Positions 12,944 to 16,541 of a stretch of DNA of 28,593 bases are shown one piece after another. The notes under the pieces are model-generated. The model saw only the letters and a list, made by a program, of their open reading frames with translations. It ran no database searches and was not told the origin of the DNA. How positions within the stretch are numbered: position 1 is the first letter of the stretch; each line of letters opens with the position of its first letter. The position numbers and the translations under genes were made by a program. This DNA is from a virus, in the IMG/VR virus record IMGVR_UViG_3300002488_000048, positions 1-28,593 of that record; one strand, written 5' to 3'.

Positions 12944-13086
12944 CTTTTAATTCCTTTTATATTATTCCATTTATCCCTTCTCTCCTCACATCCACAATTA
13001 AAACCGAAATACTTACTTAGCCCATCTACAATAAACTTTATTCCTGTGTACTTAGTGAAATAGTAAACCAAGTCTCCTAATCTCAT
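12937..13086 (-). CDS. Small protein with CGC motif
   Basis: A 49-aa frame from the ATG at 13086, overlapping the sigma-like gene stop (ATGA): MRLGDLVYYFTKYTGIKFIV, DGLSKYFGFNCGCEERRDKW, ending NNIKGIKRW. The LGDL...TKYTGIK...CGC..RR arrangement is one I associate with short conserved proteins in Bacteroidota phages. Function unknown. It ends seven bases inside the next gene, so the three genes are probably translated as a chain. Confidence 0.65.
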   Translation of the reverse strand: MRLGDLVYYFTKYTGIKFIVDGLSKYFGFNCGCEERRDKWNNIKGIKRW

Positions 13087-13571
13087 AATATTTTTTTTAA
13101 TTTTTCTTTTACCTTTTTAAAAGTGTTGTAAAGTGAATAATAAGGTATTCTTGTTTTTCTTGATAAATCTGCAATACTACTACCATCATCTATTATCTCA
13201 TAAACTTTTTTATCATACCAGAACAACTGATCCATCTCATTCTGTACTTTTTCAAATGCTTTGTGATAATCAGTATTATCATCAACGCTATAATCTTCTT
13301 TTAAATTATTAATATCTGTAATTTGAACTTTATTCTCTTTTCGTTTCAAATCAATAAACAAATTTCGCAACATTCTAAAAACATAAGAGTGATTAAAATC
13401 ATCATCTCCGTAGTTAATATCCAGACCTTTGTTCAACTTTATCTGCATTTTAATGTACATTTCTTGAACAATATCTTCTGCAGTTTCAGCATTACAACCA
13501 AACGAACATACAATACTTTTCCATTTATTATGCTTTTTTGCTATTTGATTTAAAATCTTTAAGTACGTCAT
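13083..13571 (-). CDS. Sigma-70-like (ECF-type) transcription factor
   Basis: A 162-aa protein. Residues 25-45 (GCNAETAEDIVQEMYIKMQI) match sigma region 2, which contacts RNA polymerase; 62-80 (SYVFRMLRNLFIDLKRKEN) continues region 2; a helix-turn-helix at about 131-160 (SSIADLSRKTRIPYYSLYNT then FKKVKEKLKK) matches region 4, which reads the upstream promoter box. The linker is acidic. ATG 13571 is chosen; 13577 is also possible. It overlaps the ATPase gene by 44 nt. It may redirect host polymerase to late phage genes; targets cannot be read from sequence. Confidence 0.7.
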   Translation of the reverse strand: MTYLKILNQIAKKHNKWKSIVCSFGCNAETAEDIVQEMYIKMQIKLNKGLDINYGDDDFNHSYVFRMLRNLFIDLKRKENKVQITDINNLKEDYSVDDNTDYHKAFEKVQNEMDQLFWYDKKVYEIIDDGSSIADLSRKTRIPYYSLYNTFKKVKEKLKKIL

Positions 13572-14367
13572 AGTCATCTCCAATTACTTCTGGGAGACCT
13601 ATTTTATTTACTTTAAAGGAAAACTTCTCAAACGGAAATCCTCTGCTTCTTTTACAAGATACATTAACCCTATCATTGTGAACTGTATTAACTTCTAGTT
13701 CAATTTGAGTTTCACATTTCTTCTCAAGAAAAGAGCCAAGGTGACCTGTTGGTTTTGACGTATTAAAATTAGAATGAATAACAGTAACTATATGACAATT
13801 ATATTCTGCAGTCCATTTCATTAGATGCTGCACACATAAATTACTTTGCTCTAAATCATTTACATCAGAAACCAAATCAGCAATCCCATCAATGATAATT
13901 AAACCAACATTTTCAATCTGGTTTAATGACTGCTCAATTATTTGTATTCTTTCAAAATAGTTAAGTTCCCTCAATGCAAATGTATAATAATTTTCCGTAA
14001 TTCCAGACATATCAACTGCTCTGCGGAAAACCCTTGAACAATGGAACTCACTTTGCTCTGTATCAAAGTGTATAATACTTTTACCATTTCTATTACCTTT
14101 TATATCTCCGCTAAAATGATTGTCACCTAAATAAGCGGCTGATAGCAAACTAATAAAAAATGTTTTTTTGGCTTTCGGAGGGGCTTGTACAAAACTAAAA
14201 TTGCCATAAGTCCCAATAGGTACTTTAACAACCTCATTGCCTCTGCTAGTCTTTAAGACCATATTACCTAATGACAAAGCAATAGGGGGATACTGAACAA
14301 TATTTAATGGATTTATTTGGCATTTCTTTAATAAGAACTTTCTCTGTTCTATTGATAGTTTTTTCAT
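13528..14367 (-). CDS. RecA/RepA-like ATPase (AAA_25 type)
   Basis: A 279-aa protein with a RecA-fold ATPase core: a degenerate Walker A APPKAKKT (62-69, Ala/Pro replacing the usual Gly), HFDTEQSEFHC (100-110, the acidic strand 3 motif), Walker B VGLIIIDGIADL (154-165), and VTVIHSN (194-200). This is the layout of RSF1010 RepA-like helicases and related phage proteins, suggesting a replicative helicase or its loader. The C-terminal 80 residues are beta-rich. It follows a strong terminator and the TTAAACCACAG leader, so it begins a new unit. Confidence 0.75.
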   Translation of the reverse strand: MKKLSIEQRKFLLKKCQINPLNIVQYPPIALSLGNMVLKTSRGNEVVKVPIGTYGNFSFVQAPPKAKKTFFISLLSAAYLGDNHFSGDIKGNRNGKSIIHFDTEQSEFHCSRVFRRAVDMSGITENYYTFALRELNYFERIQIIEQSLNQIENVGLIIIDGIADLVSDVNDLEQSNLCVQHLMKWTAEYNCHIVTVIHSNFNTSKPTGHLGSFLEKKCETQIELEVNTVHNDRVNVSCKRSRGFPFEKFSFKVNKIGLPEVIGDDYDVLKDFKSNSKKA

Positions 14368-14370
14368 AAT

Positions 14371-14381
14371 CTGTGGTTTAA
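14371..14381 (-). promoter_or_regulatory. Shared leader TTAAACCACAG (second copy)
   Basis: Same 11-mer as at 8067-8077, three bases before the ATG at 14367 and fused to the T-run of the terminator. Its role is unknown. Confidence 0.45.
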
Positions 14382-14408
14382 AAAAAAAGGGGGGAAATTA
14401 ATCCCCCC
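14380..14408 (-). terminator. Terminator after the SSB-like gene
   Basis: On the minus strand six G (14403-14408), an 8-nt loop, six C (14389-14394) and a run of nine T (14380-14388). Clear rho-independent terminator. Confidence 0.9.
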
Positions 14409-14719: not shown

Positions 14720-15239
14720 TTATTTTTTGTTTTAAAAAATTTTCAACATCATTATCAAAATAGAATTTATCTTTGACAGTATCAAAAGATAATCCGTTTT
14801 TCATTGCTTTTACAACCTTGTTAAAAGTATCACTATTTTTTTCAAGTTTTACTCTTTTGTTTATTGTATCAGCATCTTCAGTATCATCTATTAGAAATAA
14901 ATTGCCTAAAGCGTATTTTTTCCCAAATGATGACGTTGCACCAAATCTTTGAGGCATTAACTGCCCTTTCTGCTCTATTTCAACACCTACTATCGCAGAT
15001 GCTTTTATCTTCTGGATACCATCAGATATAATAGCAGTTGATTTGATAATATTATTCCCCAAATACTTTTCTTTTAATTTAACAGTAACATCGTATTCAA
15101 GTAAAAAGGGTTTAAGTGCTTCCTGTATGTCCTCTGCGGAACGATAATAATACTTACCAAACTTGTTAAATCTACTTTTCTTTGATTTAAATTTAGTCTG
15201 GATTTGTGCGAGTTTGTGGTTAAGTGATATTTCTTTCAT
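14712..15239 (-). CDS. erf: ERF-family single-strand annealing protein
   Basis: A 175-aa protein with the ERF superfamily signature: GKYYYRSAEDIQEALKPFLL (28-47) near the N-terminus and QRFGATSSFGKKYALGNLFL followed by IDDTEDAD (97-124), the conserved region ending in acidic residues. ERF proteins anneal complementary strands during phage recombination and genome circularisation. A short unrelated C-terminal region (140-175) follows. The SSB-like gene overlaps its end, the usual partnership. High confidence. Confidence 0.88.
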   Translation of the reverse strand: MKEISLNHKLAQIQTKFKSKKSRFNKFGKYYYRSAEDIQEALKPFLLEYDVTVKLKEKYLGNNIIKSTAIISDGIQKIKASAIVGVEIEQKGQLMPQRFGATSSFGKKYALGNLFLIDDTEDADTINKRVKLEKNSDTFNKVVKAMKNGLSFDTVKDKFYFDNDVENFLKQKINE

Positions 15240-15447: not shown

Positions 15448-15627
15448 CTAATTCCAACCCATCAACATTCTCTTTTGTTCAATACTCATTTCTTGTATCT
15501 CTTCTCTAGTAAGATTTCTGTAATTAGAAAATAAAGTATCTTCAATATAATCTTCAAATACATTATTGTAAATGTCCTCAAGATCTTTTTTTACATCTCC
15601 AAAAATAAAGTCTAATGAATTTTCCAT
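15448..15627 (-). CDS. Hypothetical acidic protein
   Basis: A 59-aa protein from the ATG at 15627 (MENSLDFIFGDVKKDLEDIY), ending QKRMLMGWN. The frame is open upstream, but that part lies across the hairpin at 15648-15663 and an upstream TTG-type start is unlikely. The leader TTAAATAGAATAGATATG is nearly identical to that of the gene at 15919. Acidic, helical, no family recognised. Confidence 0.55.
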   Translation of the reverse strand: MENSLDFIFGDVKKDLEDIYNNVFEDYIEDTLFSNYRNLTREEIQEMSIEQKRMLMGWN

Positions 15628-15647
15628 ATCTATTCTATTTAATTTAA

Positions 15648-15670: not shown

Positions 15671-15919
15671 TTAATTATTATGCAATTCAAGATTCCCTTT
15701 TGTAAGAGTATTTAAACCTCGAATAAACATTTTTACCGCAGAATCTTTATACTCCTTGAATTGGTTACTAGACTGTAAACTTTCAAGTTCAGCTTTATGC
15801 TCCATCCATTCTTTATTTAAAGTAGCCCTGCAATTCTTCGCTAAATTATATCCGAGTGTGAAATTAAGCCTAATTAATCTTTCTAGATCATTTTTATTAA
15901 TTCTAATTTGATTTTTCAT
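15671..15919 (-). CDS. Hypothetical early protein (candidate sRNA target)
   Basis: An 82-aa protein: MKNQIRINKNDLERLIRLNF, TLGYNLAKNCRATLNKEWME, then a charged helical C-terminal half. The NDLERLIRLNFTLGYNLA helix resembles the start of the protein at 12076-12294. It has its own promoter (15953-15984) and leader TTAAATAGAACAGATATG, in which 11 nt are complementary to the putative small RNA upstream. Function unknown. Confidence 0.6.
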   Translation of the reverse strand: MKNQIRINKNDLERLIRLNFTLGYNLAKNCRATLNKEWMEHKAELESLQSSNQFKEYKDSAVKMFIRGLNTLTKGNLELHNN

Positions 15920-15952
15920 ATCTGTTCTATTTAAGTTAAATTAATATTAGTG

Positions 15953-15984
15953 TAAATATAAACAAAAAATTTTATAAATCAAAA
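15953..15984 (-). promoter_or_regulatory. Bacteroidota-type promoter for the 82-aa gene
   Basis: TTTTG (15980-15984), exactly 19 nt, then TATATTTA (15953-15960) on the minus strand. It lies directly after the terminator at 15992-16025 and 33 nt before the ATG at 15919. Positions 15954-15978 repeat 12328-12352 exactly. Confidence 0.7.
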
Positions 15985-15991
15985 TTAAAGT

Positions 15992-16025
15992 AAAAAAAAA
16001 GAGGAAAAAATTAATTCCCCTCTTT
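15992..16025 (-). terminator. Terminator of the candidate small RNA
   Basis: On the minus strand AAAGAGG (16019-16025), a 14-nt A/T-rich loop, CCTCTTT (15998-16004), then more T down to 15992. A rho-independent terminator with no coding gene just before it. Confidence 0.8.
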
Positions 16026-16106
16026 AGAACAGATAATAACTGAGTAAAATCTTTACGATTCAAGCTCTACCCAATTAAAAGAAATATACCACCACAGTAT
16101 TATTTA
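15992..16106 (-). ncRNA. Candidate structured small RNA
   Basis: About 115 nt between a good promoter (16112-16143) and a terminator (15992-16025), with no start codon giving a usable frame. Predicted by eye: a 9-bp closing stem with one bulged U pairs 16095-16103 with 16033-16042 (ATAATACTG with CAGTTATTAT). Inside, GAGCTTGAATC-GTAAA-GATTTTACTC forms an imperfect hairpin. The segment before the terminator, UAUCUGUUCUA (16025-16035), is complementary to the start region of the next gene. The 5' end is estimated from promoter spacing. It resembles no RNA family I know; a tRNA was considered and rejected. Confidence 0.5.
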
Positions 16107-16111
16107 CAAAA

Positions 16112-16143
16112 CAAATATAAATAATTATAATTTATTTATCAAA
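16112..16143 (-). promoter_or_regulatory. Bacteroidota-type promoter for the small RNA
   Basis: TTTG (16140-16143), 20 nt, then an exact TATATTTG (16112-16119) on the minus strand. It overlaps the last codons of the NinG-like gene and no coding gene follows before the next terminator. Confidence 0.65.
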
Positions 16144-16521: not shown

Positions 16522-16541
16522 AACCCCCCTTTAGGGGGGTT
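16522..16541 (-). terminator. Perfect G/C hairpin before the NinG-like gene
   Basis: AACCCCCC (16522-16529), 4-nt loop, GGGGGGTT (16534-16541): an 8-bp perfect stem, symmetric on both strands. Only a weak T-run (TTGTTATAT) follows on the minus strand. Separates the lysis region from the recombination region. Confidence 0.65.

Follow-up and report, generated by a model that had tools for sequence, protein, structure and literature searches.

A putative gene for a multi-target base-pairing small RNA, mostly next to ninG in Bacteroidetes-type phages, whose seed varies together with its predicted targets

The gene of C4 RNA, a small RNA of phages, precedes its target on the same strand, and the RNA pairs with the start region of that target; C4 RNA is transcribed from the promoter of the target operon and acts on an antirepressor operon. 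In plasmids, ColE1 RNA I and R1 CopA are copy-number antisense RNAs that are fully antisense to their target locus. Known phage sRNAs are mostly single cases from Hfq-bearing proteobacterial hosts, and Bacteroidetes hosts are generally described as lacking Hfq. The C4 antisense RNA of phages P1/P7/P22 (RF01695) is listed in PMC2864571, and a review (PMC12197685) covers sRNAs of phages that base-pair with RNAs of phage or host (VpdS, PreS, sar, OOP, aQ and 24B_1). VpdS of Vibrio phage VP882 and PreS of lambda are phage-encoded, trans-acting base-pairing sRNAs, the first affecting phage and host mRNAs and the second acting on host dnaN, and P22 sar and lambda OOP and aQ limit phage regulatory genes by base pairing (PMC12197685).

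Here we describe a non-coding unit in a 28,593-base stretch of viral DNA, a complete IMG/VR record referred to below as the window. In layout, its nearest known system is the C4 antisense RNA, as the unit also lies upstream of, on the same strand as, and complementary to the start of the downstream gene. Unlike C4, it has a separate promoter and terminator and many candidate targets, none of which was identified as an antirepressor, the helicase discussed below included. VpdS and PreS are Hfq-dependent single cases from gammaproteobacterial phages, whereas here the targets found are leaders of the phage itself, and the seed differs across a Bacteroidetes-type phage lineage. Like sar, OOP and aQ, the unit would be a phage RNA restricting phage genes through pairing; being antisense to an overlapping locus, they are complementary to it automatically, whereas selection must maintain the complementarity of the unit, which is to unlinked sites. 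Were the helicase the main target, the unit would resemble ColE1 RNA I and CopA by analogy, in that its dose would follow DNA copies and repress a replication function, while differing from them in its short-seed pairing at several loci. None of the phage RNAs named above is described in PMC12197685 or PMC2864571 as spanning a lineage, acting on many targets of its own phage and carrying a co-varying seed, and no report of such an sRNA in Bacteroidetes phages was found in the open-licence literature. Searches of Rfam 15, at the gathering score and at E<=10, gave nothing credible for the unit (best L20_leader, 16.9 bits vs a gathering score of 58.7); no tRNA or tmRNA was found there, nor any match to the C4 covariance model.

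The minus strand of the window holds 50 of its 51 called genes, with a tailed-phage gene set (ninG, ERF, AAA_25 ATPase, sigma-like factor, terminase and endolysin by Pfam/PHROG). Its cultured relatives prominently include flavobacterial phages and, at the level of host type, the virus infects marine Bacteroidetes-type bacteria. The unit is located between the lysis genes and ninG on one side and the early module on the other, and is composed of the following features:

16125-16127, minus strand: stop codon of ninG (Pfam NinG 1.2e-08; PHROG NinG 2.6e-26)
16112-16143, minus strand: P1, Bacteroidetes-type promoter TTTG-N20-TATATTTG recognised by sequence, overlapping the end of ninG
15992-16107, minus strand: predicted sRNA of ~110 nt, its 5' end estimated from the promoter
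16078-16097, minus strand: seed block A, CUGUGGUGGUAUAUUUCUUU, with the same sequence in the relative L002
16037-16077, minus strand: 16-pair hairpin with one bulge in the predicted fold, between seed blocks A and B
16025-16035, minus strand: seed block B, UAUCUGUUCUA, directly before the terminator and for the most part free of pairs in the predicted fold
15992-16025, minus strand: intrinsic terminator, an 11-pair hairpin (AAAGAGGGGAATTAATTTTTTCCTCTTT at 16025-15998) and a U run
15953-15983, minus strand: P2, promoter-like TTTG-N19-TATATTTA of the next gene, recognised by sequence

The elements of P1, which are TTTG at 16143-16140, 20 nt and TATATTTG at 16119-16112, are found inside and just past the end of ninG. 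They are followed by ~85 nt with no convincing ORF, the terminator hairpin with its U run, P2 and the ATG at 15919, so that the promoter within the ninG end, the non-coding stretch of about 110 nt closed by a terminator and the second promoter proposed by the first-pass annotation are all present. The 9-bp closing stem with a bulge and an inner hairpin that it had drawn by eye was redrawn and corresponds to the predicted 16-pair hairpin with one bulge at 16077-16037. The unit had also been called exceptional for this genome; a second terminator-bearing non-coding gap exists at 14389-14408, but the unit is the only gap found with such anatomy. This second gap lies between an SSB-like gene and the helicase gene and holds a strong intrinsic terminator just upstream of the helicase leader. 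Another strong inverted repeat, AACCCCCCTTTAGGGGGGTT, is found upstream of ninG at 16522-16541 and is terminator-like on both strands.

The sRNA region has a predicted fold of -27.4 kcal/mol (z = -3.4), equalled by 0 of 200 shuffles. Comparing the folds by eye, the closest relative, L002, retains an 8-bp core of the 16037-16077 hairpin and differs in it by three one-sided changes, all of which preserve pairing. A sigma-70 consensus scan of the window gave as many sites as the scan of shuffles and would thus, used alone, have missed P1.

As the unit had no direct DNA relatives by blastn in phages, and its exact core was absent from IMG/VR, conservation was read through ninG. NinG protein searches of IMG/VR yielded 80 + 80 loci, partly overlapping, at which the usual order behind ninG is a TAnnTTTG promoter, a leader (S) of 20-90 nt, a terminator, a second promoter and a small ORF. 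TAnnTTTG was found at the ninG stop in 74 of the 104 distinct ninG loci, but at only 38 of the 1211 other gene ends of these phages, and a P1-type promoter together with a terminator in 68/104. In many relatives the leader is short and single-stranded and is accompanied by the terminator alone, the larger stems being absent; thus, of the elements for which the annotation had suggested comparing homologous regions, promoter and terminator are kept in most relatives, but the stems are conserved less well than the arrangement of the parts. A small RNA with its own promoter and terminator, as first proposed, is still the best reading of these sequences.

The unit is missing in a group of ninG loci (a clade with several of L046-L070, and also L078, L083 and L084), and at these loci a different, conserved gene is found directly 3' of ninG. 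Contigs L083 and L084, binned as Pseudooceanicola and Euryarchaeota MAGs, bear a ninG of this phage type and are probably misbinned phage contigs. At the ninG loci of Riemerella phage RAP44 and Bacteroides phage BS-TP2, the annotated ninG overlaps the next gene or ends 23 nt before it, leaving no space for a unit. A terminator-anchored sRNA scan found nothing clear in Olleya phage Harreka_1; the scan ranked the unit of G008 first, yet several known positives ranked poorly, making it unreliable as a finder.

The decisive feature, which goes beyond the first-pass annotation, is that the predicted RNA is complementary to several gene starts of its own phage and that this complementarity co-varies between phages. 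In the window, the following sites were identified:

15919-15929, minus strand: target site UAGAACAGAUA, spanning the AUG of an 82-aa ORF (15671-15919)
15627-15637, minus strand: target site UAGAAUAGAUA, spanning the AUG of the ORF that begins at 15627
15214-15239, minus strand: candidate target, opening codons of the gene for the ERF recombinase, in two-part pairing with block A
14343-14377, minus strand: candidate target, AAA_25/helicase gene starting at 14367, with ACCACAG (block A) and UAGAACAGA (block B)

The first site is an 11-nt exact complement of block B and the best start region for it (z -5.1), and the second forms 11 pairs with block B, one of them G-U. Neither ORF had a Pfam or PHROG match. 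The leaders and start codons of these two ORFs, which are unrelated, are covered by a 29-nt direct repeat (15619-15647 and 15911-15939, 90% alike), and each copy contains the proposed target motif. Block A pairs best, among all start regions of the genome, with the ERF start (E -20.5, z -5.3; ERF identity by Pfam, 7.8e-22), and this site was not seen in the relative G019. At the helicase gene, whose AAA_25 protein matches the 'DNA primase/helicase' of Flavobacterium phages, ACCACAG at -10 would pair with CUGUGGU of block A and UAGAACAGA at +16 with block B. The target is weak by duplex energy; ACCACAG is found 10-11 nt before the helicase AUG both in the window and in G019, and the helicase and ERF starts of G019 showed no strong pairing with their own S. 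Since the statistics of the window by itself are modest (an 11-nt run, p ~0.05 in a shuffle test with the full S), with the full-S duplex at the adjacent gene no better than shuffles, the case rests on the family.

Within the family, S and the leader of the next gene vary in step from phage to phage: GUUUUAAUGUU faces AACAUUAAAAC in L150, GUCUUUUAAAUU faces AAUUUAAAAGAC in L122, UUUCUGUUUGU faces ACAAACAGAAA in L107, and UGUGUUAUU faces AAUAACACA in L076. Adjacent genes matched with their own S in 35 units gave -554 kcal/mol vs -379±18 on random re-pairing (p<=5e-5), and 19 units whose S share no common 9-mer gave -295 vs -192±13 kcal/mol (p<=5e-5), although some units (L002, L118, L109 and L146) show no adjacent-gene pairing.

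Whole contigs of 27 phages, the window included, were then represented by the 21 left after removing near relatives, and the start regions (-25..+22) of each phage were searched for exact complements of its own S. Complements of at least 11 nt numbered 35, vs 3.7±1.7 for dinucleotide shuffles, 6.1 for foreign S and 0 in the direct orientation; for at least 12 nt the count was 20, vs 1.1±0.9, 1.9 and 0, respectively. When the adjacent gene was excluded, 33 and 19 complements remained. In G008, variants of UCACUAAAACAAA are found at the starts of six genes, while G006, G011, G013 and G016 each have their own target set. The seeds are largely unpaired and accessible in the predicted folds, and their partial complementarity to several unlinked start regions goes beyond chance. 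In the pairing tests the bounds of S are partly hand-set, a simple caller supplied the gene starts and the duplex energies ignore accessibility.

The RecA/DnaB-like helicase ATPase is, as judged from complementarity, the most consistent target. Among orthologue groups, the one targeted most frequently is that of a ~304-aa ATPase, which carries a Walker-type GHANVGKT motif and has no Pfam match; its distant matches in cultured flavophages bear the annotation DNA primase/helicase or primase/polymerase. The group was targeted in 8 of 13 phages. Helicase orthologues of the 13 phages gave -222.6 with their own S vs -135.9±11.5 on re-pairing (p<=5e-5), and 21 units whose S share no common 10-mer, window-type AAA_25 genes included, gave -357.9 vs -222.5±15.5 kcal/mol (p<=5e-5). 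One gene, whose leader differs in each phage and in each fits that phage's RNA, argues for base-pairing co-variation; seeds and targets change in a compensatory manner at the helicase as well as at the adjacent gene.

The unit is thus likely to be the gene of a phage-encoded, multi-target, trans-acting base-pairing sRNA with a fast-changing seed, which very probably controls the phage's own replication genes by base pairing. Its anatomy and the complementarity, with the orientation, position and co-variation of the latter, are observed in the sequences; its expression, its timing and a repressing rather than activating action are what we infer in the following scheme. Host RNA polymerase would start at P1, and a ~110-nt RNA would end at the intrinsic terminator. 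Its single-stranded seeds would pair with a short motif at the starts of several of the phage's own mRNAs, those of the adjacent small ORFs and of recombination and replication genes, most consistently the helicase ATPase. Pairing near the AUG would then block ribosome entry, causing translational repression of early and replication genes. The sRNA would accumulate with rising phage DNA copies and then shut off early genes, a build-up made plausible by its own promoter and its position heading the early/replication module. A constitutive, dose-following RNA that represses the replication helicase would amount to negative feedback or early-gene shut-off. Since every phage lineage combines a seed of its own with a corresponding target motif, the two sides co-evolve. 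More tentatively, this Bacteroidetes phage lineage may hold its early genes under a private, diverging sRNA-to-leader code centred on the helicase, giving feedback on replication dosage and insulation from co-infecting relatives, as each seed would fit only the leaders of its own phage.

Pairing reveals targets and not direction, so the same sRNA could be an activator, or could regulate host genes, with the phage leaders serving only as decoys. Pairing centres are mostly 2-16 nt upstream of the AUG, overlapping the ribosome footprint, and target starts slightly exceed other starts in openness (0.62 vs 0.575 unpaired, p=0.03), making a ribosome block likelier than unmasking, which starts already open would not need. 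Repeated conservation at one phage gene, the helicase, favours genuine phage targets over decoys, and we regard both of these variants as unlikely. It is still less probable that S acts in cis as a leader, pairing the start of the next gene only in read-through transcripts, so that mRNAs derived from upstream are silent, only P2 transcripts are translated and no free sRNA functions. S and the adjacent start are indeed complementary in most units, on the same strand and ~100 nt apart; however, a terminator separates them, the helicase co-varies with S, and 19 of the 20 sites of at least 12 nt are not at the adjacent gene, most of the excess being kilobases distant. A reading in cis only was therefore rejected because of these distant targets. 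In each phage the motif recurs at several genes, between promoter and start codon, which would also suit an operator bound by a phage DNA-binding protein, with S as an extra inverted copy, yet the orientation is fixed (35 reverse-complement and 0 direct copies of at least 11 nt in start regions), for which this very improbable reading was rejected; moreover, the site hugs the AUG and can reach into codons, G-U pairs occur, and the sequence varies freely among close relatives. A composition artefact, by which U-rich leaders and A-rich starts match by chance, would fit AT-rich genomes and modest single-phage statistics, but is scarcely credible against the far lower dinucleotide-shuffle, foreign-S, reversed and direct controls and the helicase re-pairing (p<=5e-5). 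Finally, a type I toxin-antitoxin system, in which the target would encode a small hydrophobic toxin, was rejected, as the adjacent ORFs are polar or coiled-coil-like by eye, vary between phages and match no family.

Dozens of uncultured phages and one cultured phage thus appear to share a positionally conserved sRNA gene with many self-targets. As seed and targets vary together, they provide a natural compensatory-mutation experiment, and post-transcriptional control in Bacteroidetes phages becomes directly testable. The pattern further suggests how RNA regulons of phages might be sought in general, by scanning for short RNAs with a reverse complement that is repeated at start codons. Downstream of the helicase in the window, a sigma-70 region 2-like protein (13083-13583; Pfam 1.8e-05, PHROG sigma factor 5.3e-07) may set later phage transcription.

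The cultured case is Flavobacterium phage 11b, in which an unannotated unit was identified at ~30,334-30,394, between gp51 and gp52 and not beside a ninG. It shows the same anatomy, with TATATTTG, an S containing UAUUUGGUUUUA, a terminator and a second promoter. The complement of this S, AAACCAAA, has 11 plus-strand copies outside S, 7 of which are at annotated starts (p=6.6e-6), vs 0 of 3 copies on the other strand. Shuffles of the whole S did not separate cleanly, since S is of low complexity, and the phage was examined after the pattern was known; 11b is thus taken as support and not as proof. Within 28715-28850 of 11b, upstream of gp50, a target-like UAAAACCAAAUA is found 23 nt before an unannotated ATG, and the record may miss a start or a short gene there.
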